Origin: Halobaculum marinum
Lineage (GTDB): Archaea; Halobacteriota; Halobacteria; Halobacteriales; Haloferacaceae
NCBI RefSeq assembly: GCF_029338555.1
Contig: NZ_CP119991.1
Location: forward strand, 186,001 to 250,000
Direction of reading: 5' to 3'
Length of the DNA: 64,000 nucleotides
Below the pieces are notes generated by a model that did not search any database, was not told the DNA's origin, and was given only the letters and a program-made list of their open reading frames with translations. The translations under genes were made by a program, and so were the position numbers. Within the stretch, counting starts at the first letter, position 1; each line of letters opens with the position of its first letter. Positions 2,647 through 54,398 of the stretch are shown one piece after another.

Positions 2647-2723
2647 AACTGGAACAAACGCGGGAACGCGCTCTCGTGGAATCGTTGCAAGGGTATACGA
2701 GTCAATCCGTGTTCCGTGGGAGT

Positions 2724-3692
2724 TCATAGCTGAGCAGGGATGAAATCGCGCCGTCGGCGCATCCCCTGGCGCTTCGATGCTTGGTCGTAGTGCGCTCCCA
2801 GAATCTTCTTGCAGACGTCGCCGCGGTCGCTGACGACCTAGCGCAGGTCCCCGCGTCGCGGTGGGTCGTGATCAACCCCGCGCGGAGCTGGTGCGGCGAG
2901 TACTCCACCCCGAACAGGTCCACCAGCTCCTCTGCCCAAATTTCGCCCGGGTAGTCGATCATGTGCTTCAACAGTCGATGCGGCGTGTCCTGACACTCCA
3001 TATTGTAGCGCCGGATCGACTCCATCGCTAGTTCGCGGACGTCCGCAATCAGCTCCAGCGTCCCGTCCGTAATCCCCGAGAGGTCGCCCGCGTCGACGCG
3101 CGACTGGAGGATGTCGACGAGTTCTGACTGACTGTAGCGCTTGAGTTCGATGTGCAGGCCGGTCCGGAAGCGCGACGACGTCTCGGCGTCGAGGCGCGTC
3201 ACGAACCGCTCGTGCTCGTGGACGACGAACACGGGCGCCACGCCGTTCGCCTCGAAGAGGACGTGTGGGAGGTGTTCGTCCTCGATGTGTTCCGCCTCGT
3301 CGAGCGTGAGGACGATGGGCGAGTCGGCGTCCTCCAACTGCGCGAGGTACGACGACGCGGCGTCGGCCTTCGGCGATGAACGCGTCTTGAGGCCGGCGTC
3401 GACCAGCGCCTCTTCCAGGATCGCAGCATGCGAGCGCGTCCGGAGGCAGTCGACGTGCGCGGTCTTCACCACCGTCTCCCGGCGGAGTTCGTGGACCGCG
3501 AACCGCGAGACAACCGTATCGCCCGCGCCAGTCGGCCTCGAGATACAGATCGGGTACGCCGGACGGTCCGAGCGGAGCGGGTCGAGGGCGTTCGCGAACT
3601 GCCCGAGCGCGGCGTCGCGGTGGGGCATCCGCTCGGGTGACGCGGTCGAGTTCCAGAACCCGCGGGACTGTGGCGCTCACTCCGTCTGCCAT
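2724..3692 (-). pseudogene. Decayed Orc1/Cdc6-like replication initiator
   Basis: An AAA+ Orc1/Cdc6-like sequence spread over two frames. The start frame reads MADGVSATVPRVLEL from 3692. Near 3635 the homology moves to another frame (SPERMPHRDAAL). It returns to the first frame near 2850, where a TAG at 2838-2840 interrupts it before VVSDRGDVCKKILG and a final TGA at 2724. The Walker A region reads PTGAGDT and lacks the catalytic Lys; Walker B is LTLDEAEH. The core from about 3628 to 2870 is well preserved, so decay may be fairly recent. Its ATG overlaps the end of the upstream decayed gene (3677-4032), which suggests a former two-gene operon. It was probably a plasmid-type initiator and is now non-functional. 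Confidence 0.7.
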
Positions 3693-4326: not shown

Positions 4327-4356
4327 GTTTCAGACGAACCCTTGTGGGGTTGAAAC
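4327..4356 (+). CRISPR. Solitary haloarchaeal CRISPR-type repeat
   Basis: A 30-bp unit starting GTTTCAGACGAACCC and ending GGGGTTGAAAC. From memory it matches the repeat family of haloarchaeal type I-B arrays (GTTTCAGACGAAC...TTGAAGC). The last two bases differ from the second copy at 4645. It is separated from that copy by 288 bp that contain a small gene rather than spacers. No cas genes are in the window. Confidence 0.7.
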
Positions 4357-4465
4357 GACTGCGTCGGAGCGAGGAACTCTTCTACCAACTCGTAGCACTT
4401 CTCGAGTTCTCCGTGCTTGTTGTACTCCTCCACCGCCCTTACCGCACGTCGCCTCTCCTCGGACG

Positions 4466-4471
4466 CTTATA
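4466..4471 (+). promoter_or_regulatory. TATA-like element for the 48-aa gene
   Basis: CTTATA lies 27-32 nt before the ATG at 4498, the spacing expected for a leaderless archaeal transcript. No Shine-Dalgarno sequence is seen before this ATG. Confidence 0.45.
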
Positions 4472-4497
4472 CCAATACACCCCAATGGTAAATCGTA

Positions 4498-4644
4498 ATG
4501 TCCGAAACAATCGACGTTGACCGTGACGCTGTTGAGACGCTGTACCGCGAAGTTGTCGCCCAGACTGAGAACATCGAGGAGGAGTGGCGTAACCCTGAGG
4601 TCGATGCCGCCCTCGACATAATTGGTGAGGCCCTGTACGAGTAA
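4498..4644 (+). CDS. 48-aa acidic protein between CRISPR-type repeats
   Basis: ATG at 4498 to TAA at 4642-4644, giving a 48-residue acidic protein that begins MSETIDVDRDAVETLYRE and is predicted to be mostly helical. It has a TATA-like box at the right distance. The next CRISPR-type repeat starts at 4645, the base directly after its stop codon. The family is not recognised. The helical, very acidic character would fit a small antitoxin-like or anti-CRISPR-like protein, but nothing in the sequence proves this; it may be an ordinary small haloarchaeal protein trapped in a decayed array. Confidence 0.6.
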   Translation: MSETIDVDRDAVETLYREVVAQTENIEEEWRNPEVDAALDIIGEALYE

Positions 4645-4737
4645 GTTTCAGACGATTCCTTGTGGGGTTGAAGCGGGAAGCGAACCGACTACCGCCAGCA
4701 AATCGGGAGCTTCAGACGAACACTTGTAAGACGAAGC
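4645..4737 (+). CRISPR. CRISPR remnant: repeat, one 34-bp spacer, degenerate terminal repeat
   Basis: The repeat at 4645-4674 differs from the 4327 copy at two bases inside the unit (ATTCC for ACCCC side) and at the end (GAAGC). Then comes a 34-bp spacer at 4675-4708, and a degenerate repeat at 4709-4737 that keeps TTCAGACGAAC and GAAGC. The repeat-to-repeat period of 64 bp is normal for haloarchaeal arrays. A degenerate last repeat is common at the distal end of an array, so this looks like the tail of a collapsed array. Confidence 0.7.
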
Positions 4738-4819
4738 ATCGGATCGGTCTTCTCCTGCTTCTGTAGCTATGATCTTATTTGACTACCTGGGGTCGCGCGC
4801 CAATGTAACGGGGATCCGC

Positions 4820-7780: not shown

Positions 7781-8815
7781 ATGCTATACAGACGACGAAC
7801 CCTCGATCTCTCCAGGGGGGCACTAGAGACGCCAGTTCTCTTCCCCGTGAGAAACATCGGGAAACGGTCAAGCGATAACACGCCCGAATACGTCGGTACT
7901 ATACCCGAATTTTCAGTGGCGATGATCAACACCCGGTCAATTCGGAACCGCGAACCAATGTGGAATCGTCTCACAGATGGAGTTCCTCTCCGGAAGGAGA
8001 TGGATGTCCCAGAAGACACGATCGTATTCGCGGATAGCGGTGGATTTGATTTTTCCAGCGGAGATGTCGACACCACTCCAGCACAAACCCTCGACACGCA
8101 ACGGCAACTTGACGCTGACATCTACGGAACCGTGGACCTCCCCCTCTCCAGAGAGAATCGGGACGCAGAGAATGACCGCCGTGTTGAACAGAGCACGAAG
8201 TACGCCCTTGAGGCGAGTGATTTACACGATGGAGACAGTCTCCTCATCGCGAGTGTTCACGGGTATGACCCGCAGACAGTTCGAAACAACATCCGCTATC
8301 TGGAGAAGAATGGCCACTTCGATGGCTATGCCCTTGGGAGCATGGTCCCGATCCGAACTGACTACAAAAAAGTATCTAAACTGATACTTGCTGCTCGTAC
8401 GGCGACTGACAAACATCTCCACGTTTATGGCCTTGGTGGTCTTGTCTATCAACCACTTCTTTTGTATCTTGGCGTCGACAGCTTCGACTCCTCTGCATTC
8501 ATCAGAAGTGCGGGAAATAGGAATTATCTCGTTCCTGGATTTGGTGGAGAAGCGCTTAGGAACGTTGAATCGATGGAATACCTTCCTTGCCCGTGTCCGG
8601 TCTGTGGACAGCGGTGTCTAGATGATATTCGCGAGGATCGCACCGCACTCACTCAGCATAATCTTTGGGCCCTCGCAACTGAGCTTCGACGGTTCCGCTA
8701 TGTCGCTGAGTCTGATCGTGACATCGAAGAATATCTTGATCTACGCTTCCAAGGGAATCCAGTCACACAACGCGCTTACGAGACCGCGAAGCAGCAAGTC
8801 CGGAGGCTCTCATGA
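7781..8815 (+). CDS. TGT/DpdA-like transglycosylase (344 aa), first gene of a three-gene operon
   Basis: Likely a base-exchange enzyme of the tRNA-guanine transglycosylase superfamily. Visible motifs: DSGGFD at 85-90 (substrate Asp loop), VDLPLS at 118-123, ALGSMVP near 184, GVDSFDSS at 231-238 (nucleophile Asp region), and a zinc site C270, C272, C275, H293 (PCPCPVC...QHNLW). It is shorter than archaeosine TGT and lacks the PUA and C-terminal domains, as expected for DpdA-type paralogues that act on DNA. The ATG follows GGAGGT with no spacer; no better start is visible because a TAG sits just upstream. Its stop overlaps the next ATG (ATGA). Action on DNA rather than tRNA is inference from length and gene context. 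Confidence 0.75.
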   Translation: MLYRRRTLDLSRGALETPVLFPVRNIGKRSSDNTPEYVGTIPEFSVAMINTRSIRNREPMWNRLTDGVPLRKEMDVPEDTIVFADSGGFDFSSGDVDTTPAQTLDTQRQLDADIYGTVDLPLSRENRDAENDRRVEQSTKYALEASDLHDGDSLLIASVHGYDPQTVRNNIRYLEKNGHFDGYALGSMVPIRTDYKKVSKLILAARTATDKHLHVYGLGGLVYQPLLLYLGVDSFDSSAFIRSAGNRNYLVPGFGGEALRNVESMEYLPCPCPVCGQRCLDDIREDRTALTQHNLWALATELRRFRYVAESDRDIEEYLDLRFQGNPVTQRAYETAKQQVRRLS

Positions 8816-9711
8816 GCGATGAACGTGCGACCGTCCGCCCTGTCTCACTCAGCCGACTCGTTGAGGTTACACACTCCTGTGGAGATACAGAAAAAACGAC
8901 AGCGGAGATCGAGGGTGCTTTGGACGTGACCTACCGTCGGGCACGAGAGACAGTCCTCGAGGCTACTCGAATTAATTTGCTCTCTGAGGACGACGCTGAC
9001 GCCGATTCAACTTATACAGCGACTGATGTCGGTAGCAAATTCTTGAACGCGATCCTCGATGAGAACTGGATTCAAGCGAGTCAGATACTTGAAATGCACA
9101 GCCCACACTACGGTTCGTTTATTCAGACCGTTGAGGAGGTTGAGCACGGTGATCTGACCACTGTCCTCGAACATCTTGAGGCGGAGGAGGAGTTCACCCC
9201 GTACTCATTCAACCAAACAAGTGTAGAGGTACTTGGCGATTGGGCAGAGCGACTGGGTGCAGTCCAGCGTAACGCATTCACCGGCAGTTACTACCCTGCT
9301 GCACAGACGCCGATCCCGGACAATTTCCATTATATTCTTTTAGACATTTATGATGACCTCGAACAGACTGCTGGTGTCGACCTCCGGCAACGCTACCTCT
9401 CTATCCCGCGCCTCCGCGAGGCGACATGCGAACGTCTGGGTGCTACACGTGAGGCGTTCAACGAAGCACTCCTAATTCTCTGCCAGCAGAATGTCGGAAA
9501 GCTTGAACTTTCCGGTGCTCCAATGGATACCGGAGCGAAGGACGCCACACTTGGCATTAAGCAGATTGAGCTTGCGGGCGACGACAACTTAGTCTCAACA
9601 TCTCAGTCCAGCCAACAAATTATGAGTGGTGTCGTACAATTCGGAAAACAGTACTACTACCTGGCAGTTCACGACCGCAACATCACATTCACTCAGGAGA
9701 ACTCCCCATGA
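8812..9711 (+). CDS. Winged-helix-like partner of the TGT-like operon
   Basis: 299 residues, starting inside the stop of the TGT-like gene. The first 75 residues look like a winged helix (SLSRLVEVTHSCGDTEKT, then a putative recognition helix YRRARETVLEATRINLL). Residues 90-200 form an all-helical middle part; a second winged-helix-like segment (LREATCERLGATREAFNEAL) lies near 195-220. The rest is beta-rich. No enzyme motif is seen. It may recognise DNA for the transglycosylase or ATPase. It is reminiscent in size and position of the DpdG/DpdH pair of bacterial dpd islands, but this could not be verified. Confidence 0.6.
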   Translation: MSDERATVRPVSLSRLVEVTHSCGDTEKTTAEIEGALDVTYRRARETVLEATRINLLSEDDADADSTYTATDVGSKFLNAILDENWIQASQILEMHSPHYGSFIQTVEEVEHGDLTTVLEHLEAEEEFTPYSFNQTSVEVLGDWAERLGAVQRNAFTGSYYPAAQTPIPDNFHYILLDIYDDLEQTAGVDLRQRYLSIPRLREATCERLGATREAFNEALLILCQQNVGKLELSGAPMDTGAKDATLGIKQIELAGDDNLVSTSQSSQQIMSGVVQFGKQYYYLAVHDRNITFTQENSP

Positions 9712-10865
9712 ACGATACATTCACCATCACCGACGAGCAGCAGGATTACTCACAGTACGACCTCGATGCCAACCCCTTCCCCTACAGCCCCGTACCCGCG
9801 GAAGATCCAGAGATCTACTGCGGCCAACCGCATGTGACAGAAAAGATCAGCTCTACTGTTTCATCTGTCCTCTCAACGGGGAAATCAAAACACCTCGTGG
9901 TTACTGGAAAATACGGAAACGGAAAGTCTCACACGCTCAAGTACACGCGATCACTGCTACGTGACCGCGACGATGTCGTCGTCGGGTATGTTGCTCAACC
10001 CGGTGAAGGATTTCTCGACATCTATCACGAGTTTATCTACGACCTCGGGTTCAGTCGTGTGCAGGAGATCGCCTACGAGTATCTTGCTGCTGTCACCTGT
10101 GATATCACCGACGAAAACCCAACCGGAGCAAACGAAATGGAGTCACTCCTCGACGATGGCGAGATCCTTCTCTCGGAAATTGTCCCTGAGACCATCCGTC
10201 GATTAAGTGATGTGACCAAGTTCGCAGACTTCGCTCGCGCAATCGTCCATATGGTCTATGAAGATACAAACTTGTACGCGTGGCAGTGGCTTACTGCGGA
10301 AGGAATCCGCTACGAACAGCGGAAAGAGATGGAGATACACAGCGCCCTTGACGATGACACCATGGGGGTCCGTGCGTTCACTGCTATGAAGAATATACTC
10401 TTGGATCTCAGTTATACAGGTGTGTTTGTCTTCGTCGACGAGTTTGAAAGTATTGCTCGACTCTCCCCGAAGAACGAGCAGGCGACATTGAACAGCATCC
10501 GTCACCTGATGGATCAAAACAGCAACGGACTCTGTATGCTATTTGGATGTGCGCCGGAAGTCTGGCAGGACGTCATGAGCGAGTATCATGCCTTCAGCGA
10601 GCGTATTGGCCAAGAAGTGGCACTCCGTCCACTTACTACTGAGAATCTTACCGAACTTGTTGAGGACTATCTCAGCCGAGAGCGGACAAGTGCTGTTCCT
10701 GATCCTGCCGTTCGGCCGTTCACAGAAAATAGCTTGGAGTTAATCCTACAGCGCTCTCAAGGGAATATCCGCCAAGTTCTCTCTGTCTGTAGCCGTATGC
10801 TGGATAATGCAGCAAGCGAGAGTCAAGCGGAGATAACAGCGGATTTCACACAGGAGCATATCTAA
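9708..10865 (+). CDS. AAA+/Orc1-like ATPase of the TGT-like operon
   Basis: 385 residues; ATG overlaps the preceding stop. The N-terminus has the NPFPYSPVPAEDPEIYCG pattern found in Orc1-like and DUF2791-like ATPases. Walker A is GKYGNGKS at 67-74. Walker B is VFVFVDEFES near 242-252. A sensor-like FGCAPEVW follows, and the C-terminal lid region includes SQGNIRQVLSVCSRML. The length and layout fit a clamp-loader/Orc-type DNA-dependent ATPase. In context it probably loads or times the transglycosylase on DNA, or acts as the switch of a defence system; both are inference. The operon ends here; only 56 bp separate it from the convergent homing-endonuclease gene. Confidence 0.75.
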   Translation: MNDTFTITDEQQDYSQYDLDANPFPYSPVPAEDPEIYCGQPHVTEKISSTVSSVLSTGKSKHLVVTGKYGNGKSHTLKYTRSLLRDRDDVVVGYVAQPGEGFLDIYHEFIYDLGFSRVQEIAYEYLAAVTCDITDENPTGANEMESLLDDGEILLSEIVPETIRRLSDVTKFADFARAIVHMVYEDTNLYAWQWLTAEGIRYEQRKEMEIHSALDDDTMGVRAFTAMKNILLDLSYTGVFVFVDEFESIARLSPKNEQATLNSIRHLMDQNSNGLCMLFGCAPEVWQDVMSEYHAFSERIGQEVALRPLTTENLTELVEDYLSRERTSAVPDPAVRPFTENSLELILQRSQGNIRQVLSVCSRMLDNAASESQAEITADFTQEHI

Positions 10866-18597: not shown

Positions 18598-19090
18598 GCG
18601 CGGTCTCGTTCAAGATCAGGACCAATTCCTACGTCTTCTCCCTAACCGGCACTACGGGATCGTTGCGGAGCGGCGCGGCGCGGATAGAACGGTGGCGGTT
18701 GCTGGGGCGGCGCTGTGAGGCTCCAGTCGAAACGCACCCTCGGCGGCAGAGGGTGCGTGAGGCTGGTGCCGTGTTGCCGGTCGCGGGGGCGGTTCGTCGC
18801 GGTCGCCGTCGGCTTCGATCGCCTCGACCGACCAACCGACGAGTGCTGACGGACGTGAGCGGGGCGGGTCGACGACGACTGATCTAGTGCGGTCTTCGAC
18901 GGTCATCCACCCCGACGATATCTCAACACTTGCCACTCACCTAACTGAACAACCGACCTTCTTCGAATCTCCACTACGGCTTTTCGAGGTGGAGCCTGTG
19001 AGTGAAACGAACAGGCGGAGCCGACGCGGTTCGGGGCGGTCGCGGAAGCTGTTGCGGAGCGGTCGCGGCGCGGCCGGGGCGGCGGTCGCG

Positions 19091-19224
19091 GTGAGGGGGT
19101 CACGGGGGACGCCGGCGAGCCGCCCGCCTCGGTCGACCCCTCTCGACGCCAGGAGAGATGTCGCCGAGCGGGCGCGGTCGTCGGACAGTCCCCCGGGCGG
19201 TCTGCACCAGCGTCGACGCGGTCG
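19091..19224. repeat. 130-bp direct repeat, copy 2
   Basis: Partner of 16504-16634 with several substitutions and small gaps. Copies are about 2.6 kb apart and bracket the zinc-ribbon and membrane protein genes (16635-18569). Confidence 0.65.
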
Positions 19225-19646
19225 CCGAAGCCCCCGATCCGATATGCACTCAATCTGGTAGGTCGGCATCGGCGACGACAACTCGAGTAGTGGCGATGCT
19301 GTCGCTCAAGCCAACTTCCCCCCTGGGGAGTAGGCCACCTTTCCCACTGTGGCCGGTGCGGTTCAACCCACCTCTCCCACGGGCTCGTCGGGAAGGATGA
19401 CCCCCCACCCAGCGGGTGCGGGACACACCGAGAACGAGTGCTCGATCAGAGCCGACGTTCGGCTGCTCGTCGACGTCCAAACTGGCCTGTCGATCGCCGA
19501 GTCATTCCCCCCTACTGCGACCCCCACCATCGACCGGCGGCCGGGGCCGCCGCTGCGGCTGCGGTGCGGTCGCGGTGGCCCCCGGCCACCGCCGGGTCGA
19601 CTCGACGAGTCGGCCCTGCTGGTCGTCGCCACGGTACTGGGAGTAT

Positions 19647-19667
19647 CCCACGATTCCGAATCGTGGG
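19647..19667. repeat. Perfect 9-bp palindrome
   Basis: CCCACGATT (19647-19655), three bases, AATCGTGGG (19659-19667). It lies in the gene-free region among other TCGA-rich inverted repeats such as GACTCGG...CCGAGTC near 19765-19782. Confidence 0.6.
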
Positions 19668-20271
19668 GTACGGTTCGTGATCACCAGAACCTACCAGATC
19701 GTCGATATGGGAATTCGGCCCTGTCCGGCAGGACGACCTACTGGGTCGCGGCCAGTTCGACTCGGGTATCCGAGTCCCAATCGACGACGTCGATTCGAGC
19801 TGGCCGACGGCCAGGATCTTCCCGAAGTGCTGTCGACGATCTCGACTCGACCCTGGTCGACAACCAGTCCACCCACCCCCCTCGCGAGAGGGGGGACCAA
19901 CCGACTCGGCGATCGGGGTCGAGCCGAGTCGGTCGCGTTCAACTGACCTCCCAATCTGCCTCGCTCAACCCAAGGGGGAACCACTCGAAGTTCGCCCGGA
20001 TTTCCTCCCTTTCGATGGGGCCCCACTGGCCCCCTCCTGAGGTGCTGTCAGAGACCCCTGCCCGTTGGCCCTCAGAAACAAGCTGAAATCCCTGCGTAAT
20101 CCAAAACCCCCCCCTTGATCAATACGATAAGGGGTGCGATTGGCGATTTTCCAAAACCTGAAATAAAGTCGAATGTCTCTCATACCCTTAATCGGCTGTG
20201 AAATAGGTGTATCGGGCTGCTATTGTGAGAATTCTAGATTTAATAACATTGGTCTGAATTGGGCCGATTAT

Positions 20272-20468
20272 CCCCCCTGCACACCCCCCTGCACACCCCC
20301 CTGCACACCTCCACCGTCAGCCACTATACGTGCGAATTCATTCTATTAATAAAATATTCTCTGAGCCTCGATGCTGTTCAGGGGGGTGTGCATCCCCCTA
20401 CCCCGACGCCGTCTGGTTATTTTCGCATATTGGCGTTCTACCACCCCCCTGCACACCCCCCCTGCACA
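20272..20468. repeat. 12-bp iterons CCCCCCTGCACA
   Basis: Three perfect tandem copies at 20272-20307. One inverted copy (GGGGGGTGTGCA) lies at 20381-20392. Two more direct copies lie at 20444-20455 and 20456-20468 (the last with one extra C). They flank an AT-rich core (20308-20380). The arrangement is like iterons of a replication origin or binding sites for a partition or regulatory protein. Confidence 0.7.
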
Positions 20469-21325
20469 CCCTGAGAGTGCTCTTTGAATACGGAAACAGG
20501 CGGGGGTATATCTCTGCATAGGTAATCGCGGAATAATGTGGGGGCAGATCGATGAGACAGTTGTTGGTCGAGGTTGTGAGATGAGATAGATACCCTCGGC
20601 TTCTTCGAGAAATATACTCCCGAGTCTGGTGCGGATCTCACTGTCGGGGTTGGGGAGTCCTGACCATTGTCTGGATCGACTGGGGTGCAACCGATAACGA
20701 ATGGTGGCGTCTGTTCGAGATTGAATTGCCCCCCCCTCAGATCGATATTGTGGTGAGAACACATCGCGCCTCTAAGTCCCAAACTGAGGCCCCAATCCAG
20801 AATTCGAATTATACATATACCAGATATCGTATGTATTTGTGGAGTGTACCAACAGCTCCGAGAAAATCTGCGTTGTCTTCTGAAGGCCTGAACAATATTC
20901 ATCGAATCGGCCCGTCCACCAGTCGGGATTGTAGGTCTCATTCGGGTCCGTCTCGCGGGGAGAGATTCACTCTGAAGAAAATACACCAGGGGTATGGTCG
21001 GGCCGAAAAGTGGTCGGAATGGAGTAGATTATTACAGCAAGATCCGTCGCATGACCAAAGGAGTGATCTGGCCGAATCGGATCTAGAATTCAGTCCCTTG
21101 AGATCGCATTGCTACCCCGGGTGAGTTCTGACCACTACCCGCGTTCGGTAATCCCATTTCACTACTAGCCCAGTTTGATCTTGAGTGTCTGAGTAGGGCG
21201 GGTCGATTACAGAGACTTGCGCTTCGCTGAGTCAGCACTTTGTGTAGAGGACGAGTTCAGGGACCTCTATACTGTGTAAGGAATCTAGTAGATGGTAGTC
21301 AGTATTATTCCATCACACGCTACGT

Positions 21326-24300
21326 TTACTCGGTGAGGGCTTCACCAGACTCGGTCAGTACGACCCCAATTAGCCGGGTGGCCTGTTCGCCCTTCACCCG
21401 AGTCCGCTTCTTCTCACATCCCGCCACTTCAACGAGCTCCGCGATCTTTGATTTCGGTTTGGCGTCGATCCCATTTGCCTCACAGAACGATTGGTATGCC
21501 TGAAACGCCTCGTTGCTTTCAACGTGGATGTAGTCGATATTTTCGTCGTCAATTGGCTCGGCTTCGTCGGTCATGTGCCGGTCAACGAACTCCGTGATCG
21601 AGTTCTCCGTGGTCAGTCCATCGACGCTGAAGTCCCACTGCTTCTGCGGTGGTTCGATACCTGGGTCAACTCCGTAGTGATCCTCGAAGTTCAGGATCGT
21701 CTCCCGGTACAACTCGGCCGGAAGTTCGCGCCGCGTGTACTGGCCGTTCGGTCCATCGCGGGTCACCTCCTCGAAGTCGTCCTCGGTTGCAACCCCCATT
21801 TCGAGTGCAGCGTACATCAGCGCCTTCCGGGGTACCTGCGCGTCGTCACTGAGCACGTTCAGCTTCTCTTTGACACCGACCCAGGTGTGGAGGGTTTCCT
21901 CGTCAGTGAACCTCCCTTCGGGGTGGTTGAGATCGCGGACGTTCACCGCACACGCGAGGTACGACAGAGGGGTGTACGCGGCGTCGCGTTTGTGGTCGTA
22001 CGCGACCCCCGAGTCGAGCAGGACGAAGTAGTTCTCTGACTCGCCCTTGTGGCCCAGCGGGTTGGTGCCACGGCGACCGAACCCAGTGGGCACGAGGTCA
22101 CGCATCCGCTGGTCGTACAGCTCGTTCCGCGTCCGGCCCGAACCGGGCTTGCCGTCTTCCTCGTCGAACGACGACTCCCACTCGTCGTTGCGGACGCGGG
22201 TCGTCTCGGCCTGCATGATCGCCGCGTAGCCGGGGTGGTCGGTCGCCCGCTGGATCTCGTGCCCGTCGAACAGCGGCTCCACACGAGCGCCGTGAGCGGC
22301 CTCAGACGACGCCGAGTTCGGCAGGGGTGCGACGGACCTGTTCACGCCCTCCGCGCTCGCCACGGCGACGTGGCGCCCCAGCGTGAGGAACGGGCCGAGT
22401 TCTCCGTCCGCGAAGGTGGGACGGAAGTGCTCGTCGCCGGCCCAGTCATGTGCGTCGGCGTCGATGATCGCGGTGTACGCCGACTTCGCGGCGTTTGTCT
22501 TCGCCTCACCGTAGGCGGCGAAGCGACCGTACTCCATCGTCGCGAACTCCACCGGCGAATCGCGGATGGCCTCCATCTCCTCTTGGGTCAGTTCGGTGTA
22601 GTCGAAGTGGGGGAACTGGCTGATGTACTGCGTGAGCGACTGGCTCTCGTCATCGGTGAGCGAGGAGATGTCCACCGGCGCCGGCGTCGTTCCATCTTCG
22701 TCCTCGGGGCTGTGGTGTTCCTCGAGGTACGCTTCGATTTGGGGGACGTACGCGGCGTCGTACGCGCGCCGCTTGGCGAACGACTCCAACCAGTCGCGTT
22801 CGAGTGTCGACTGGCTCTCGGCGTGCGTGAGCGCCCGCGTGGGCAGGCGAGTGATGTCGCCGTACTCCTCGACCGTATCGGTCTGTTCGAGGAGGGTGAC
22901 GTCTTCGTCGCGGCGCCACGTCTCGACCAACGCCGACAGGTGCGGCAGTGGCGGCGCAAACTCGTACAGCTTGTCCGAGAGGTAGTCGTCCAGGTCAACC
23001 TTGTCCGCACCGACGCGGGGGAGTTCGACGATGAACGACGAGATGCCCGCTTGTTCGAGGCGTGCGGCTGTGCGAATCGCGCCGTCCTCACCGGGTGCCA
23101 CGGAGTTGATCTCCATGCACTCGGTGATGGGCCCCTTCGGGGAGCGCTGGTACGTCTTGGGGATGTTCTCGGTGTCGCCCTCGACCATCGCCTCCAGCAC
23201 CTCGGCGGACGGCCGGTCGGCCTCGGCAATGGGATCGATGGTCGCCCGCTCGTTGTCCTGCACGAGATACGCCGTGGGGATGTCGTACTTCTCGATGAGG
23301 CGTTCGAGTTCCTCGACGTGGCTGTTCTTGAACTTGGTCGTGACCGGCGAGAGACACGGGATGCCGTGAGCGTTCGCCGCGATGGCGTCGGCGATACCCT
23401 CCGTGATGACCACGGGGCGGCCTTCCTCCAGCGAGTGCTCGCCGTAGATCGGCTCGGTGGTGTAGACGCCGTCGTATCCGGCGGGGAGCTTCTGGTACTT
23501 CGCGTCCGGCTTGAGGTCGCGCGGGTGGTGGCGCCCTTTCTGCGTCCGGCTGATGGCGTGGATGGCCGTCCCGTCGGCGTCGAAGTACGGGAACAGGTAG
23601 CGGCCCTTCCAGCGCGACCGGAGCATCTCGACGGCACTCAACTGGGGTGCTGCATCGGGGAACGGCACCTCCTCGATGGCTTCGCGCAGATCGGCGCCGA
23701 ACATCTCGGCGAGTGCGCCCTTGATGTCCTCCGGGACGGTCGTATCCGACTTGCTCTCGAGGTACTCTCTGATGGCCTCGATGGCAGGCCCGTCGTACTC
23801 GTCGCTGGCGAAGTGGTCGCGGATCGCGTAGTAGTCGGGACGGAACAGCCCGGTCGCGATGATCTGCTGGAACGTGAACCCCTGCTCAAGCAGTTCCTCG
23901 ACGCCGGCGCGCTTGTACGAGGGTACCCAGCCGACGCGAGCAGACTCAACGGTCTCTTCACTCCACCCACGTCCGTGATGGTGGACGCCGGCCTGCCCCG
24001 CGTGTCGGTGTGCGGAGTGCGACTCCAGGTCCTGCGTGATGATCGCGAGGTCGTCGTCACTCACGTCCCACGACGGGCCGGTGAAGTAGTCGTACTGAGT
24101 CTCAGGCAGGTACGTGAACGGCTCGCTCGTCTCGATCGTACAGCAGTCGTCACACTCGGCGGGTTGGGGGTTGCCGCTGTGACTGAAGCACGGCTCAAAC
24201 TCGACGATGGTGGTCGCCTCGGCGTGCGTCTCGTCGGCGTACTGGGCGCTGTTGGCAGGCGCCGTGTAGCCGGCGCGTTCTTCGGGGGGTAGCTGATCGG

Positions 24301-27300
24301 GTTCGAGGTCGACGCCGGCCTCGTCTCCCAACTCGCCCATCTCCAACTCATTCATCAGCATCGGTTCGTCGTCGCTCGTCGGCGGCTGCTTGTTGAGTTC
24401 GACGAGGTCGGTTGCACTGACCCCCAGCCGTTTGAGTGTCGCCCACGTCGGACTGTGAATGCCGTCAACCTCGTCTGCGTCGGCGGTCACCTCGATGGGG
24501 ACGACGCGCGCGTCGTCGACGGCCTGTTCGTGCTCGGCGACACACTCTGCACAGAACGCGGCGACGGTACAGTCGTCGCAGTCGGCGTTCGTGATCATGT
24601 GCTCACTGCACGGAATGGCGTCGACGCGGACGACGGCGGCCTCGTCGTGGCAGTGGTCACACTCACCTTCGACGCGGCAGTGGGGGCACTCGTCGTGGTA
24701 GTGGTCGTGTTCGGGCCACGCGCCGGTGTCGTCGCTGTCAGCGCTGAGCGGTTTCTGACCGGCCTCGCCACACGGCGTCCGGTACTGGTCGTCGACGTGA
24801 TCCAGCAGCGCGTTGTACCAGCCGTTGGGCTTGACCGTCCGGTCGAGCTGGTCGTGGTAGTAGTCGACGGCGGCGTCGAACGCCTCTTCCCAGCCGTCGG
24901 GTTCGGTCGTCGGGAGGAGCCCGGTAGTCGGCTCCTCGTCGCCGGGGGCATCTGCGTCGCTTGTAGGGTCGTCGCTCGCGACGGGCGTGTCCGCGTCGCC
25001 CTCGCTGGTCGGGGAGACCTCTTCGTCGGGTTGACTATCGTCGCTCGGCGTGGCGAGCGATACTGGCTCTTCAGGGTCGGTGTCGTCGGGGGCGATGAGT
25101 GGGAGGTCTTCCTCGTCGTCTTCATCGTCACCGTCGGCTCCCTCAATCGCACTCGCGACATCTTCGGGACTTGCCCCTTCGGCGACGGTGATCTCTTCTT
25201 GGTCGGCGGCGGAGTCGGTGGTCGTCGCTTCGGTGGCCCGCTCCTCCGGTTCGTCTTCGTGGTGCTCGTCCACGGCCTCGGTAGGCTCTTCGTTCTCTGA
25301 CTGGCCGTCGGCCTCGTAGTCATCGACGACCACTTGTTCATCGTCTGGCGCGGCCCCTTCCGCGGTCGCCGTGTCGGATTGGCCCGTGGTCGGCTCCGCT
25401 TCGTCGGGTTGCTCCTCAACGCCTTCTTCGGCAGGTTCGGCTTCCTCCACCTCGTCTTCCGCCGGGCCCTCACCATCGTCAGCCGGCTCACTCCGTTCGT
25501 CGGCTGGTTCGGAGTCTGCCGTGTCCGAGTCGCCCTCGGGATCGTCGCCGCCGTCCTCGTGGAACGTGTCGAACGCATCCCAGTCGATTTCGGGGCCGTC
25601 GACGTCGGCTGCGTTCAAGGCGATCATGTTGCCCTCCTGGAACAGGATGTTCGCCTCGAACGCTCGATCAACCTCTACGGCGGCGTCTTCTTTCGAGACG
25701 GTCTCCAGCACTCCTTTGACTACCGAGGGGAACGCATCCCGCGGGGTTCCCGTCTTCTTCTCCGGGTCGCCTTCGATCTTTGCCCACACCGTCTTCCACT
25801 CCTGCGGGACCTCCCGTTCGGTGATACGGACGCTGTTGTCAGTGCCATCGACTTCCTCGAGATAGCCGGCGGCGAGTGCAACTTCGATTGCGGCTGCGAC
25901 CCGCTGTTCGGTGTTGTGTTGCCCGATGAACGGCTCCACGCCTTTCGCCATGAACACGACGCTCTTTCGGGGGAGGGACCGGTCGCGGTCCTGGCCGCCG
26001 TCGGCCCACACGTTCTCCCACACGTAGCGGTTCGCGAAGCGGTCGCGTTCGCCGTCGAGGACGAGTTTCGCGTGTCGACCCTGTGGCGGGGCAAGGAAGA
26101 ATCCCAGTTCCGTCTCGACGATGTGCCCCATTTGCGAGGCATCGTAGATGGCACGGTCCCGGTTGTCCTTCATGGCGTTGCCCTTCGCGAGTGCTTTCTT
26201 CAGCTGCTCTTTCTGGAGGTGTTGGGCGTGATCGGTGTCGGCCGCGTCCCACGCTTGCTCCCAGAACACACGCGAGAAGGGGTCCTTCCCGCCGTAGTCG
26301 GTGTGCGACGTGTACTGCGGGCTGGGTCGTGGTAGTTTCTCTCCGTTAAGCAGCGCGTCTGCTTGGATCGTGTTGTCTGTCATCGGTGGCTCTGTGGTCG
26401 TGTCGTCTGCGATTTCGTCGTCCAGTTCCCCGTCCGTCTTGTCGAACCCGCGGATGAGCTCTGTCGGGAACCGCTCTCGGAACGATGGCGTCCACTCTTC
26501 TTCGGGGATGAGTGGCGAGAGGCTCTCACCGTCGTACAACTGCGGCATCGCGTCTTCGGGTGAGTTGATCAATTCGTGGTCAGTCGCGATGGTTGCGATC
26601 TCCCAGTCCACGGATTCGGGACCGTGCGTGAACTCTGCTTGAGGGAGGAACGGCCGCCGCACCCGCTTCCAGTCTTCCTCGAGCTCCTCCATCGTATCGT
26701 AGAGGAGTTCATTCCCCTTCTCACGGTAGACAACCCATTCGTCCTCGTATTTGTCGTAGCGGGCCCACGCACTGAAGGCGTTCACCGAGGGGTTGTCGAT
26801 GGCATCAGGACCGATCTGGCCTCTTTGTTTGGCATCTGCGCTCTTGCCGTCATAGAGGGTGAGTTGGCTTCCGTTCCATTCCCACACCGACTGTCCAGAT
26901 TCGCGGATGAGTGCGAACTTGTCGGCCTCGTCTTCATCAGAGAGTTCGAGGAAGTCGGGGGTGTTGTAGAGGATGTCGCTCTCGACTTCTTCTCCCTCGT
27001 CGTTGACCCAGTGGTCTCTGGATCTGACCATCGGTGGGTCTGCAAGGACGATATGAAGCCGGTTTGCGAAGGCGTCTCGCTGGCGGTTGTGGGCCCGGCC
27101 GTCGGGGACGAGGAACATCACCTTCCGGCCTTGGTTTGCACCACGGGCGAGGTTGTTCAGTGGCCCTGCGGGCTTGCGTAGGGACTTCTCCGCTTCGATG
27201 GTGATGTCTTGGTTCCCTGCGAGTTCGGTCGCGACCGGGAACTCCTCTTCAAGTTCTTTCAGCGACTCTCGCATCAGCCGCCGGGAGGTGGTGTTGACTT

Positions 27301-30300
27301 CGCCGGGGAGTTCCCCTTCTGCGTCGGCCACGTCTGCTTTCGCCTGCTGTGCGATGATGCTGACGCGGAAGCCCAACTGTGAGAACCAGTCGAATCCTTG
27401 GGCCAACATCTCTCGGTGCTCGTCGGAGGGCGTAAACTGGGCTTCGTCCGCAGAGAGGATGAACGCGAGCCCTGCGTCGGTAAGTGTGACAGCTCCTTCG
27501 TCATCGGGGATTTCGTGTGTGTCTCCCCGGCCTTCGGCGGCGATTTCTCGATACGGTGGCTGCTCGTCTGTTTCTTCACCAAGTAGCTCTTCTGCGGGGA
27601 CGTCTGGTTGAACTCCACCATCGGCTGCCTTCGCGGACTTGATCTCGTGTTCGTCTTCAACCCGAACGTAGTGCCTGATGTGATCGCGTTCGATCGACAG
27701 CCCATTCGGGTAGCCGGTGATGGGCTTTCCAGTACGATTCTCAAACGCCCGGTTCACCGCACCGAGTGCAACATATTCGCTGCCCCGCTCAAGTTGCACT
27801 TCTCGAATCGCCATGAGGAACTGGCGCTGCGTCTGGTCGTCGTTGCCGAGGTTGTGGATCAACATCGCCGTCTCGTTGATGTCGGCCTCGAGTGGCTCGA
27901 CACCGTACTTCTCGAGCGACTCTTCGATGTGCTCGTCCGCCTCTCTGTCCGTCCGCACGGGTGGGTAGTCGGCGAACGTCTCGACGGGGAGTGCGTCTGA
28001 GAGGTACTCGTCTTGTTCGCCCTGGAGGAGCACGCGGACGAACATCGTGAAGCGGGGGATCTCTTCGACGAGGCTGTAATCGACTTCCTCGCCCATCCGC
28101 TCGGCGATCAACCGAGCGTCGTCTGCCTCACCCACACCGAACGAGGTGACGGTGCGGGAGTTGGCGAACATCTGCTTTTGGATCTTCTCCGGCAGTTGGG
28201 AGGGATTCTGGTTCGCAAGGCCGACGCCCATCTTCTTCGAGCGCGCCTTCGACAACATCGCTTCGAGGTCCATCTCCTCAGTAGCAACCCAGTCGAGTTC
28301 GTCAATGAAGGTGAAGTACGGCTCGCGGTCTGCCTCCTTCTCTTTGCGTGCCTGGATCGCGGACCACACCCGCCGCATCACTGCCGTCGACACGACCTCT
28401 TTGAGCTCGTCAGAGTCGATGGGGATCTTGACGAGGATGATCTTCCCGTTCTCGACTGCCTCGGTGATGTTCACCGTCCCCTCACGGTGGGCGACGATCC
28501 CGCGAGCGATGGGATCCTCGACCCACGACTGGATACGACGGATCACAGCGTCCACCTCGTCGTCGCCCATCTCGGCGATTTGCTTGGTGTACGTGTGGAT
28601 GTTCTCCATGTCCTCGGCGTAGTCGGCACCCATCTCTTCGGCCTCTGAGAGCTGGCGACCCTCACGCGCGATCATGTCGGCGAACGCCCGTCGCGAGTGC
28701 GACGACATGAGGACGTGGTACATATCAGTGAGCGTGAAGGGCTTCGGCGACCGGATCATCGCGCGGGCGATGTTGGTCGTGATCCCCTCCATCTTGGGGC
28801 CCCAGTAGTCGCCACCCTTCAGGATCGCCGTTAGGTCGTCGACGATAGATGTGACCTCGCGGTCGAACGCCATCGTTCCGGGCTCGGCCTTCGCCTCGAG
28901 GAAGTTGATCCCGACCGTTTTGTCGAATTCGGTGGACCCTGGCTCGATCCAGATGACGTCGTCCATCCGGTGCTCCGGAATCTCGTTGATGAACTCGTCG
29001 ACGGTGTCGCCCTTGGGGTCGATGTAGCAGAGGCCGTAGCCCTTGCGGACGACCTGGTTCATGATGTTCTTCTGCTCGGTCGACTTCCCCATCCCAGTCA
29101 TCCCGAACTGGGTGAAGTGGCGGAACCACGCGTTCTCCTCAATGCCGATCTCGTGGAAGCCGACGCGGTTGTCTTTGATGTACCCCAGCCAGATTGGCTG
29201 GTCGGGGTGGTCCTCGTGACTGTCGAACAGTTCCTTCTGGACGTCGTACCCCATGTAGACGTCACCCTCGTCGGTGATCGCTTTCACCTCATACGCGCGG
29301 TCTTGACCAGTGTGGGGATCAAGACACCACTCACGCACGGTCGAGATGAACGTCTCCGAAGACGCATCGTTGTGTCGGGCGGGAACTGGGAGGTTGTCGA
29401 CCTCGTGTTTGAGCCGGTCCTCCTCGAGCCGGCGCTGTTCTTCGGCTTGTTGTGCTGCGATCTCTGCCTCGATCAGCGCCTTCTTCGACTTCGCAGTCTC
29501 CTCGTCGAAGTTCTCGAGCAGGATTTCGTAGGTCAACTCGCCCTGTTTCCACAGCTCAACAGCCTTGAGGTGCAGGTCTTTATCTTCTCCCTCTAACCGA
29601 TCACTGGGGCGCTGTGGCTGTTCCTGGAAGGTGGCCTCTCCCGTGACGGATTTAGACGCTGCCACCCGCTCACGGGCGGCCTTCACTTCGTCGTCAGGGG
29701 CTACTTCGCCCGGCAGTTGCGGTGTCCCTTCGGGAGCCGGCTCTACGTCAGTTTCATCATCTAGCTCGGGGTCTGGGAGTGCCGGCTTGGACGAGCTAAG
29801 GGCTGTTTCGGTCGTCTCTTTCCCGACGGTGTATCGGTCCATCGGGAGTGGCGAGATGCTCTCGGGCTTGCGCGACGCATCCGCGGGCGCTTGTGAACTG
29901 AGGGCTTTCCGCGTGTACTGGACGTTCGGCGTGTCGATCTCGGCGTTGGGGAGATGAGCGAGCCCACCCAGCTCGGCTGGAGTTAACGGGAAGCTCGGCC
30001 CATTTTCGCCCGTATATCGACGCCAGTCGCGCCCCACAGCCGCCTTGAGTTCCTTCTTCAGGCCACGACCGCGCTTGGGCACTTCTCTGAATCGTTGTCC
30101 GTAGTCGCGGTTTTGGTAGGTGGCACTGTATGCATTGCCGATCTGCGCCGCCGCCTTGGTCACGAAGTCGGGTTTGTCGCTGAAAACGAAGTACCGGATA
30201 TTGACGTGGAACGCCGTCTCGTCCTTCGTGTCGGAGATCGCTTTCGCGATACGGAGATCCTTCTCAGTGGGGTCTTCGAGATACCCTTTTCTGAAATCAC

Positions 30301-30961
30301 GGTGGACATAGCGGCCCTGTCTTAGTGCCCTGGAGACCTTGTCGGCGTCTGCCCGAAACGGGATCCGACGACGCCAGTTATCGCCAGCAGGCGTGAAAAT
30401 GACCTGTGCGATGGCTGTAGACTCGTTCTGCCCGATCATGGCCGAAGTGATGTTCCGAAGGGCAGCTTTTCCGGGCTCGAATTGCCCGTGAGAGTCGCCC
30501 CCGATTCCTTTGATCGGATGGAAGATGTTGTTGTTGAGGGTTAGGTGGCCGCCCGCGACGTGGTCGCCCGGCTCGAACGCTGGGAAGGCTTGGTCCTTCC
30601 TGTTCAGTTCGACTCGGGGGTAGTTCCCTGCGAGGAGCTCTCGGTGGACCTTGTACCAGAACTCATTGGGGACTGACCAGAGGAACTTGATGCTCCCGTT
30701 GTCGTACCAGATTTCAAACGAGAACGGCCCTGGGGATTTCTCTTTGCCTCTGAGCCATTTGAAGAACCCACGGGAGACGTCGTCCCGCTGGAAGTTTTTG
30801 ATTACCTCTGGACCGTACTCCTGCCCCGGGCCTTCCTTGAACGGAAGTGACTGAATGATGGTGTTGTCTCGCTCGGTCACGTAGGCTTGGAGCTCCCTCT
30901 GAAGGTTTTCGTCAATTTGGAGTGCTCTGTAGGAATTCTTACCAATTAACGGGAGGCGCAT
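21326..30961 (-). CDS. Giant 3211-aa VirD4/HerA-like ATPase and DnaG-like primase fusion
   Basis: Residues 1-350: unassigned alpha/beta part like the front of conjugation ATPases. Residues 600-1000: ATPase with Walker A GMTGMGKST (Lys about 626) and Walker B FTFIDELDW (Asp about 887), as in VirD4/TraD/HerA coupling proteins. Residues 1050-1750: unassigned. Residues 1800-2020: very acidic low-complexity linker. Residues 2085-2145: Cys/His-rich zinc-binding part (CPHCRVEGECDHCHDE). Residues 2320-2600: DnaG-like primase core; TOPRIM VVITEGIADA has Glu about 2521, followed by VQDNE and a VDLDDYL element. Residues 3100-3211: winged-helix-like end. A TATA box precedes ATG 30961. Likely couples DNA pumping to priming for transfer or replication of an integrated element. 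The domain reading is by eye. Confidence 0.75.
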   Translation of the reverse strand: MRLPLIGKNSYRALQIDENLQRELQAYVTERDNTIIQSLPFKEGPGQEYGPEVIKNFQRDDVSRGFFKWLRGKEKSPGPFSFEIWYDNGSIKFLWSVPNEFWYKVHRELLAGNYPRVELNRKDQAFPAFEPGDHVAGGHLTLNNNIFHPIKGIGGDSHGQFEPGKAALRNITSAMIGQNESTAIAQVIFTPAGDNWRRRIPFRADADKVSRALRQGRYVHRDFRKGYLEDPTEKDLRIAKAISDTKDETAFHVNIRYFVFSDKPDFVTKAAAQIGNAYSATYQNRDYGQRFREVPKRGRGLKKELKAAVGRDWRRYTGENGPSFPLTPAELGGLAHLPNAEIDTPNVQYTRKALSSQAPADASRKPESISPLPMDRYTVGKETTETALSSSKPALPDPELDDETDVEPAPEGTPQLPGEVAPDDEVKAARERVAASKSVTGEATFQEQPQRPSDRLEGEDKDLHLKAVELWKQGELTYEILLENFDEETAKSKKALIEAEIAAQQAEEQRRLEEDRLKHEVDNLPVPARHNDASSETFISTVREWCLDPHTGQDRAYEVKAITDEGDVYMGYDVQKELFDSHEDHPDQPIWLGYIKDNRVGFHEIGIEENAWFRHFTQFGMTGMGKSTEQKNIMNQVVRKGYGLCYIDPKGDTVDEFINEIPEHRMDDVIWIEPGSTEFDKTVGINFLEAKAEPGTMAFDREVTSIVDDLTAILKGGDYWGPKMEGITTNIARAMIRSPKPFTLTDMYHVLMSSHSRRAFADMIAREGRQLSEAEEMGADYAEDMENIHTYTKQIAEMGDDEVDAVIRRIQSWVEDPIARGIVAHREGTVNITEAVENGKIILVKIPIDSDELKEVVSTAVMRRVWSAIQARKEKEADREPYFTFIDELDWVATEEMDLEAMLSKARSKKMGVGLANQNPSQLPEKIQKQMFANSRTVTSFGVGEADDARLIAERMGEEVDYSLVEEIPRFTMFVRVLLQGEQDEYLSDALPVETFADYPPVRTDREADEHIEESLEKYGVEPLEADINETAMLIHNLGNDDQTQRQFLMAIREVQLERGSEYVALGAVNRAFENRTGKPITGYPNGLSIERDHIRHYVRVEDEHEIKSAKAADGGVQPDVPAEELLGEETDEQPPYREIAAEGRGDTHEIPDDEGAVTLTDAGLAFILSADEAQFTPSDEHREMLAQGFDWFSQLGFRVSIIAQQAKADVADAEGELPGEVNTTSRRLMRESLKELEEEFPVATELAGNQDITIEAEKSLRKPAGPLNNLARGANQGRKVMFLVPDGRAHNRQRDAFANRLHIVLADPPMVRSRDHWVNDEGEEVESDILYNTPDFLELSDEDEADKFALIRESGQSVWEWNGSQLTLYDGKSADAKQRGQIGPDAIDNPSVNAFSAWARYDKYEDEWVVYREKGNELLYDTMEELEEDWKRVRRPFLPQAEFTHGPESVDWEIATIATDHELINSPEDAMPQLYDGESLSPLIPEEEWTPSFRERFPTELIRGFDKTDGELDDEIADDTTTEPPMTDNTIQADALLNGEKLPRPSPQYTSHTDYGGKDPFSRVFWEQAWDAADTDHAQHLQKEQLKKALAKGNAMKDNRDRAIYDASQMGHIVETELGFFLAPPQGRHAKLVLDGERDRFANRYVWENVWADGGQDRDRSLPRKSVVFMAKGVEPFIGQHNTEQRVAAAIEVALAAGYLEEVDGTDNSVRITEREVPQEWKTVWAKIEGDPEKKTGTPRDAFPSVVKGVLETVSKEDAAVEVDRAFEANILFQEGNMIALNAADVDGPEIDWDAFDTFHEDGGDDPEGDSDTADSEPADERSEPADDGEGPAEDEVEEAEPAEEGVEEQPDEAEPTTGQSDTATAEGAAPDDEQVVVDDYEADGQSENEEPTEAVDEHHEDEPEERATEATTTDSAADQEEITVAEGASPEDVASAIEGADGDDEDDEEDLPLIAPDDTDPEEPVSLATPSDDSQPDEEVSPTSEGDADTPVASDDPTSDADAPGDEEPTTGLLPTTEPDGWEEAFDAAVDYYHDQLDRTVKPNGWYNALLDHVDDQYRTPCGEAGQKPLSADSDDTGAWPEHDHYHDECPHCRVEGECDHCHDEAAVVRVDAIPCSEHMITNADCDDCTVAAFCAECVAEHEQAVDDARVVPIEVTADADEVDGIHSPTWATLKRLGVSATDLVELNKQPPTSDDEPMLMNELEMGELGDEAGVDLEPDQLPPEERAGYTAPANSAQYADETHAEATTIVEFEPCFSHSGNPQPAECDDCCTIETSEPFTYLPETQYDYFTGPSWDVSDDDLAIITQDLESHSAHRHAGQAGVHHHGRGWSEETVESARVGWVPSYKRAGVEELLEQGFTFQQIIATGLFRPDYYAIRDHFASDEYDGPAIEAIREYLESKSDTTVPEDIKGALAEMFGADLREAIEEVPFPDAAPQLSAVEMLRSRWKGRYLFPYFDADGTAIHAISRTQKGRHHPRDLKPDAKYQKLPAGYDGVYTTEPIYGEHSLEEGRPVVITEGIADAIAANAHGIPCLSPVTTKFKNSHVEELERLIEKYDIPTAYLVQDNERATIDPIAEADRPSAEVLEAMVEGDTENIPKTYQRSPKGPITECMEINSVAPGEDGAIRTAARLEQAGISSFIVELPRVGADKVDLDDYLSDKLYEFAPPLPHLSALVETWRRDEDVTLLEQTDTVEEYGDITRLPTRALTHAESQSTLERDWLESFAKRRAYDAAYVPQIEAYLEEHHSPEDEDGTTPAPVDISSLTDDESQSLTQYISQFPHFDYTELTQEEMEAIRDSPVEFATMEYGRFAAYGEAKTNAAKSAYTAIIDADAHDWAGDEHFRPTFADGELGPFLTLGRHVAVASAEGVNRSVAPLPNSASSEAAHGARVEPLFDGHEIQRATDHPGYAAIMQAETTRVRNDEWESSFDEEDGKPGSGRTRNELYDQRMRDLVPTGFGRRGTNPLGHKGESENYFVLLDSGVAYDHKRDAAYTPLSYLACAVNVRDLNHPEGRFTDEETLHTWVGVKEKLNVLSDDAQVPRKALMYAALEMGVATEDDFEEVTRDGPNGQYTRRELPAELYRETILNFEDHYGVDPGIEPPQKQWDFSVDGLTTENSITEFVDRHMTDEAEPIDDENIDYIHVESNEAFQAYQSFCEANGIDAKPKSKIAELVEVAGCEKKRTRVKGEQATRLIGVVLTESGEALTE

Positions 30962-53639: not shown

Positions 53640-54316
53640 CGCATCACCCCCCGGTCGACAGACGACTGCCATCGGATGTCCTTCTCGATGACGTTCAGGA
53701 CTCGCTGGTGTTCCTCTGCGGGGAACGACTCACGGAGGCGTTCCACCAGTGCCAGTGTCACCTCTGCACCGAGTGGACCGGCGACATCCAGCAGGCGTTC
53801 GATGTACGCGAGTTGAAGCCGACCGTCTTCGGTGTTATGAAATTCGCGGGTTACGCCGTCCGGACATTGTTCGACGATATCCTCGACGGCGAGTGTCCAC
53901 CGCGGCATCTGGTGGCTGGGGTTCTCAATGGTCGCATCTTTGGTAACCTCCGCGACTCCCAACAACGCGACTCCCGCGAACTTCGTCCGTTCCTCGACGT
54001 ATCCCGGTGTGAACTGCGGTTGGTCACCCTGTGCAAGTCGCGGTCCGGACCGACCCTGGTCGGGATCAACCAGTTGGGTGTCGTAGATGACGCCCATCAC
54101 GATGTACTCGTCTCCTTGAATCGTCTTCTCGATGAAAACTGGTTGGCCGAACCCACATTCGTCAGGGGAAGGGGCACGCTCGCGGTCGGTCTCGTTGTAG
54201 ATTTCGACCGTGTAATCCATGTGGCTGTTCGAACTCACGATACTACCGATCGCGAGACAGTCGTCGGTTCGGTCTCGCTGTGTGTCGGACTGGTCCGTCA
54301 GTGGTGCGTCGCTCAT
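53636..54316 (-). CDS. HAS-barrel-like accessory protein
   Basis: 226 residues. The first 120 residues (DCLAIGSIVSSNSHMDYTVE, GFGQPVFIEKTIQGDEYIVM, GVIYDTQLV) match the HAS-barrel that HerA carries at its N-terminus. The rest (RWTLAVEDIVEQCPDGVTRE) is acidic and helical. It may dock NurA or load HerA. It lies between NurA (82 bp) and HerA (4-bp overlap). Confidence 0.65.
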   Translation of the reverse strand: MSDAPLTDQSDTQRDRTDDCLAIGSIVSSNSHMDYTVEIYNETDRERAPSPDECGFGQPVFIEKTIQGDEYIVMGVIYDTQLVDPDQGRSGPRLAQGDQPQFTPGYVEERTKFAGVALLGVAEVTKDATIENPSHQMPRWTLAVEDIVEQCPDGVTREFHNTEDGRLQLAYIERLLDVAGPLGAEVTLALVERLRESFPAEEHQRVLNVIEKDIRWQSSVDRGVMR

Positions 54317-54398
54317 TGGTCGTGGTTAGTCGTGGAGATAACGGCTCCATTACCGTGATCGGGGTGCGGTTCTGTTGGCTCTCTGTGTGGCGCATGGG

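Follow-up and report, generated by a model that had tools for sequence, protein, structure and literature searches.

The window analysed here is the whole stretch of 64,000 nucleotides at positions 186001-250000 of a contig of 326,684 bp from Halobaculum marinum, a genome of 3.5 Mb in 3 contigs. Judging from its size and from the complete plasmids on which relatives of the locus sit, the contig is probably a megaplasmid. The window contains a reading frame that starts with an ATG at 30961, ends with a stop codon at 21326 and has no internal stops. The plus strand of the same interval contains many stops, and only the minus strand is open. The gene is followed by non-coding DNA with short repeats and then by a second, GC-rich non-coding stretch:

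21326-30961, minus strand: reading frame of the fusion protein, 3,211 aa, with full-length relatives elsewhere
20075-21325, strand not applicable: AT-rich non-coding cis region, 1.25 kb, GC 0.50
20272-20472, strand not applicable: iterons CCCCCCTGCACAC, five exact copies and one inverted variant at about 20383-20393
20401-20424, minus strand: GAAAATAACCAGACGGCGTCGGGG element, between the repeat groups and common to both branches of the family
19000-20074, minus strand: GC-rich non-coding stretch, the counterpart of a structured-RNA candidate in Halorubrum loci, with weak support in the window's branch

Other features of the window were noted as well. Three plus-strand genes may represent an island for 7-deazapurine modification of DNA or for defence: one at 31-2646 for a DpdA-like protein (TGT family) whose DUF6884 part matches DpdC, one at 7781-8815 with a second, weak DpdA match, and one at 9708-10865 for a BrxD-like ATPase. 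The interval 4327-4739 apparently preserves remnants of a CRISPR array, with two CRISPR-DR24 repeats (Rfam) separated by 318 bases and one more copy that is degenerate. An ORF at 2702-3643 (minus strand) has a partial Orc1/Cdc6 match (TIGR02928, 64.5 bits over positions 12-234, below the cut-off). At 51900-59871 (minus strand), genes for HerA, NurA, Rad50-like and Mre11-like proteins are clustered, and a gene for a PLD-domain protein adjoins them at 60056-62122.

The domain order of the fusion protein is N domain, TraG/VirD4-type ATPase, middle, acidic linker, Cys clusters, DnaG/TOPRIM core and winged helix. Its parts, all on the minus strand, are as follows:

29852-30961, minus strand: N domain, residues 1-370 (profile N), a separate gene adjoining VirD4 in haloarchaeal T4SS operons (pNVE500)
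27932-29281, minus strand: TraG/VirD4/HerA-type ATPase, residues 561-1010, Walker A 620-627, Walker B FIDE 885-888
26492-27511, minus strand: MID domain, residues 1151-1490, with D1213, E1256 and E1258 conserved
25592-26329, minus strand: conserved alpha/beta segment, residues 1545-1790 (profile WH)
24887-25564, minus strand: acidic linker, residues 1800-2025, core about 40% D+E
24143-24871, minus strand: Cys clusters (residues 2092-2140) and CHC2-like motif (C2258/H2261/C2270/C2273), absent from the Halorubrum branch
22892-24025, minus strand: DnaG-type primase core with TOPRIM, E2521, D2569/E2571, D2656-D2659
21632-22891, minus strand: region after TOPRIM, residues 2691-3110, a second confidently modelled helix/hairpin domain
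21326-21619 including the stop codon, minus strand: C-terminal winged helix, residues 3115-3211, like the P4 origin-binding domain and RFX DNA-binding domains
21368-21415, minus strand: wing hairpin, residues 3183-3198, the site that covaries with the repeat in relatives

The ATPase half was assigned by Pfam matches over residues 605-960, where TrwB_AAD_bind scored above the cut-off and DUF87 and TraG-D_C fell just below it. These are not matches to an FtsK/SpoIIIE-type motor, and no SF3/D5_N family match indicative of an SF3 helicase was obtained for the protein. The whole chain contains one Walker A motif (GMTGMGKS at residue 620) and no membrane anchor or transmembrane segment, the maximum 19-residue hydropathy being 1.02. 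Bacillus phage G gp156 is 25% identical to the ATPase half (E 2e-17). Structure prediction for residues 601-1800, which cover the ATPase-MID part, gave a pLDDT of 38 and no usable model. An assignment of MID as a PD-(D/E)xK nuclease built on D1213, E1256 and E1258 was dropped, as the likeness was limited to the motif and found no further support.

For the primase half, the signal obtained by sequence comparison was weak (NCBIfam dnaG E 1.6e-3, Toprim_2 E 0.06), and DNAG_N gave a clear match in relatives. On the other hand, the structure predicted for residues 2031-3211 from an alignment of 15 sequences matched the DnaG RNA polymerase domain (Foldseek E 3.6e-6, VIA Z 13.4), and the TOPRIM acids are conserved as E2521, Q-D2569-x-E/D and K-x-D-L-D-D. 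The predicted model thus confirms a DnaG-type core with the RNA polymerase domain fold and the TOPRIM acids. For residues 3115-3211 the model, mostly of high confidence, shows a winged helix. It resembles RFX DNA-binding domains, at Z values of 9.2 and 8.6, and the origin-binding domain of P4 (1ka8: Z 7.2, rmsd 2.6, 80 of 100 residues), the latter with a middling Z and at the level of the fold only. An earlier note made from the DNA letters had described a 3211-residue protein at this position with a VirD4/TraD/HerA-like ATPase, a long acidic linker and a DnaG-type TOPRIM core, and all of these were borne out; the note had also raised the prospect that no TOPRIM fold would be predicted, and such a fold is predicted. 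The Cys/His zinc parts that it listed fared less uniformly: Cys clusters and a short CHC2-like motif (C2258-x2-H2261-x8-C2270-x2-C2273) are present in the window and the motif recurs in close relatives, but Halorubrum members lack them.

At least 10 other full-length fusions, ranging from 3,114 to 3,389 aa, were found in other haloarchaeal genomes. They include proteins from Haloferax elongans (3,114 aa), Natronorubrum thiooxidans (3,314 aa), Halorubrum sp. Atlit-26R (3,310 aa), Hrr. persicum (3,210 aa), Hrr. laminariae (3,343 and 3,342 aa) and Hrr. distributum (3,293 aa), along with two from a further genus (3,375 and 3,389 aa). The earlier note had proposed a search for the fusion on plasmids, and it does occur there: the 3,197-aa protein of Halobaculum magnesiiphilum is annotated as one CDS on a complete plasmid. 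Reduced forms were also identified. The TOPRIM part is missing from Hrr. salinarum pHAR01 and from one genome of the window's genus, and both of these members retain the ATPase, the tail and the repeats. Conversely, Haloferax gibbonsii pHG3 and H. rubrum lack the ATPase but retain the primase, the tail and the repeats; in H. rubrum, 63 residues of the ATPase (60% identity) survive as a remnant just upstream of the primase. The Hrr. ezzemoulense copy is truncated at its N terminus and has an IS630 gene directly upstream. The tail domain is retained in all reduced forms. Coupling of ATPase and primase in one chain, as suggested in the earlier note, is therefore real as a fusion, but relatives can lose either enzymatic half. 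Loci with one half, and the one with an ATPase remnant upstream of its primase, are what might be expected if a mistake in assembly or frame had merged two genes, or if the protein were a decaying chance fusion. The other full-length fusions, with their conserved order and catalytic residues, make this explanation exceedingly improbable, and the independent full-length copies rule out an assembly artefact, a concern that the note had raised itself. In the literature available for searching, this fusion is not described. In databases these proteins are named 'DUF87' or 'TraM recognition' proteins, and the primase, the tail and the cis site have been overlooked as a result.

The DNA directly 3' of the stop codons of these genes is non-coding, with a GC content of 0.46-0.57 over the first 1,250 bases. 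An unbiased scan detected a locus-specific 11-mer in 4-9 copies in 18 loci with this tail, as compared with at most 3-4 in dinucleotide shuffles and at most 3 in GC-matched windows from that plasmid (n=33); the count of a repeated 11-mer is by itself a poor test, since 5 or more are common in random plasmid windows. The repeat of the two divergent fusions is a different one, and such counts can arise by chance in GC-rich DNA. In the window, GTGTGCAGGGGGG occurs five times in the cis region and has no exact match in the rest of the genome. Repeat positions hardly vary within the Halorubrum branch (about 290+, 330-, 490-, 520+, 560-, 690+ and 730-), whereas the repeat sequences do (CCCCCCGGATA, CCCCCTTGACCAC, CCCCTCCGACA, CCCCCGGACA).

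Comparison of related loci indicated that the repeats change together with the wing of the winged helix. Over the 400 residues before the tail, locus L013 has 97% in common with L019, and L018 has 86% in common with L120. However, L013 and L120 have the wing RPRFE-[ND]-x-PRKTVWF and the repeat CTTGACCAC in common, while L018 and L019 share the wing RPS-[VI]-x-x-GKQVRTWF and the repeat CCGGATA. The DNA of L013/L019, and likewise of L018/L120, is about 85-100% identical up to the last 120 nt of the gene, where identity breaks down. Similarly, L025 and L020 have EGRGRPRC and CCGGACA in common with a domain identity of just 44%. In H. rubrum, the body and the far-downstream DNA are like those of another Halobaculum-type locus (87% protein, 91% DNA), whereas the tail and repeats are like those of H. 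magnesiiphilum (97% protein, 89% DNA). Mantel tests gave a wing-repeat correlation of r 0.62 (p 5e-4) for ten Halorubrum-type loci and of r 0.69 (p 5e-5) when the rest of the domain was controlled for, as opposed to r 0.21 (p 0.16) between protein body and repeat for nine loci; these p-values are optimistic, as wings and repeat cores were delimited by eye and the wing was chosen after viewing the alignment. When the whole tail was compared with repeat similarity over all pairs, the association was weak and did not clearly exceed the one for the body (0.35 vs 0.34), and within clades it was 0.24 and not significant. Judged from these sequences, wing and repeats are exchanged together as a cassette, with breakpoints in the wing codons. 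The pattern strongly suggests that the wing recognises the repeats, which fits the RFX fold match because RFX1 reads the DNA major groove with its wing (PMC4333399).

Past the repeats, at +0.85 to +2.15 kb, the DNA is GC-rich and conserved and has no convincing ORFs. RNAalifold analysis of eight Halorubrum-type loci gave energies for four segments that were lower than in any of 60 column shuffles (z -2.8 to -7.9), and in the middle segment 64 compensatory cells were counted vs 28 +/- 10. A large structured RNA of about 1.1-1.3 kb is therefore likely to follow the repeats in Halorubrum loci (L018 13760-15040). An Rfam search of the stretch returned no family. In Halorubrum loci, L019 among them, the RNA candidate is followed, about 2.2 kb from the stop codon of the fusion, by a short conserved ORF whose product begins with hydrophobic residues (MNTLLALVVF...).

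What might such a protein do at its repeats? The reading that we favour, and to which we give about an even chance, is that of a plasmid-encoded, site-anchored initiation machine similar to P4 alpha but with a conjugation-type ATPase in place of the SF3 helicase. The P4/RFX-like winged helix would bind the repeats downstream of its own gene, with the wing reading their variable part, and would thereby place the DnaG-type primase and the TraG/VirD4-type ATPase on the AT-rich segment. There the primase would make the first primers and the motor would remodel the DNA or translocate it, in the manner of P4 alpha with its SF3 helicase. The DnaG core match, the conserved TOPRIM acids, the P4/RFX tail match, the repeats and the wing-repeat association support initiation; DNA binding, primer synthesis, motor activity and replication by the protein are inferred. 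The P4 alpha winged helix binds origin repeats, after which unwinding and priming with a TOPRIM primase follow, and in the archaeal plasmid pRN1 the origin lies in non-coding DNA downstream of the rep gene (PMC4234260). In addition, stand-alone DnaG-like primases related to the primase half are the largest gene of the small plasmids p13, phalar02, pFA-1 and Halomarina unnamed5, on which an Orc query gave no match. Our preference for initiation rests on the P4 alpha layout, the origin position in pRN1, the absence of VirB4 described below and these Orc-less relatives. Orc1/Cdc6 was detected on every other plasmid tested, which rules out the fusion protein as the sole replication initiator and argues against initiation in that a further origin is not needed; the site would be an additional origin beside the Orc1/Cdc6 origins of the megaplasmid. 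The reading is also weakened by the only motor being of conjugation type, with no SF3 helicase, and by the two TOPRIM-less members that retain ATPase, tail and repeats. Finally, nothing clear of this repeat type was seen behind the small-plasmid primase genes, and the GC skew of the 327-kb contig gave no useful origin signal, both of which count against it.

The data do not decide between initiation and transfer, the pair of options that the earlier note had put forward and that is still the right one, even though the note had missed the P4/RFX-like tail and the repeats. A transfer machine, which we consider possible with the chances against it, would work like Streptomyces TraB at clt: the winged helix would load the ATPase on the repeats, plasmid DNA would be pumped to the mate, and the primase would start the complementary strand. 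Such a machine would derive from a T4SS coupling protein and have become independent of the T4SS. For TraB itself, recognition of 8-bp repeats leads to assembly at clt, and no T4SS is required (PMC4170104). The ATPase belongs to the TraG/VirD4 family; in haloarchaea, its relatives have the N domain encoded by a separate gene and share an operon with genes for pilin and a conjugal-transfer ATPase. One divergent genome has a VirB4 relative at a distance of about 4 kb from its fusion, and the TOPRIM-less members keep motor, tail and repeats. Against transfer, a haloarchaeal VirB4-like query detected no relative at E<=0.001 in the window's own genome, and none was found in the complete plasmid records W01-W05 or in Hrr. 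distributum (G469); T4SS coupling in the own host was rejected on this ground, and most other genomes with a fusion likewise lack a VirB4 relative. Haloferax elongans has a separate VirD4/N/VirB4 set beside its fusion. Moreover, the protein has no transmembrane segment, its ATPase is not FtsK-type, the ATPase-less members keep primase, tail and repeats, and the plasmids are typed as non-mobilizable in PLSDB. The persistence of tail and repeats after loss of either enzymatic half would also suit a maintenance or segregation device, in which the repeats would be centromere-like, the ATPase would move or resolve sister plasmids and the primase would be auxiliary. We regard this as unlikely, because it leaves the conserved primase core with its catalytic acids unexplained and no SMC or Par gene is conserved beside the fusions (an SMC-like gene follows in one locus).

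With initiation as the preferred reading, the locus may be seen, a little short of even confidence, as a replication or transfer module of a new type: one polypeptide that unites a motor of the conjugation type with a DnaG-type primase, a wing-repeat pair that can be exchanged as a cassette and would define compatibility groups, and then about 1.1 kb of conserved non-coding DNA, which looks like a large structured RNA in Halorubrum loci. If true, a T4SS-type motor was recruited into an initiator-like protein, blurring the border between conjugation and replication. The natural wing swaps provide matched protein-DNA pairs for studying how the wing reads DNA and how compatibility evolves among haloarchaeal megaplasmids.

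Four known systems come closest to the fusion. The small-plasmid DnaG-like primases share the DnaG/TOPRIM core and the region following it, but have no ATPase, recognisable tail or clear repeats. Coupling proteins of the pNVE500 VirD4/TraG type resemble it in the N domain, the ATPase and a weakly similar MID domain; there, however, separate genes encode N and ATPase, with those for pilin and VirB4 next to them, and primase, tail and repeats are lacking. With Streptomyces TraB and clt it has in common a translocase-type motor protein with a predicted winged helix and short plasmid repeats as a candidate cis site, although TraB is FtsK-type and the fusion's ATPase is TraG/VirD4-type. To our knowledge, TraB carries no primase. 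P4 alpha, for its part, is several times smaller than the fusion; it differs in that the fusion's motor is TraG/VirD4-type rather than SF3 and lies on the N-terminal side, and in that the fusion's repeats are locus-specific and directly downstream. Yet both combine a primase of the TOPRIM kind with one motor and a winged helix at the C terminus, the last with a fold match to 1ka8.
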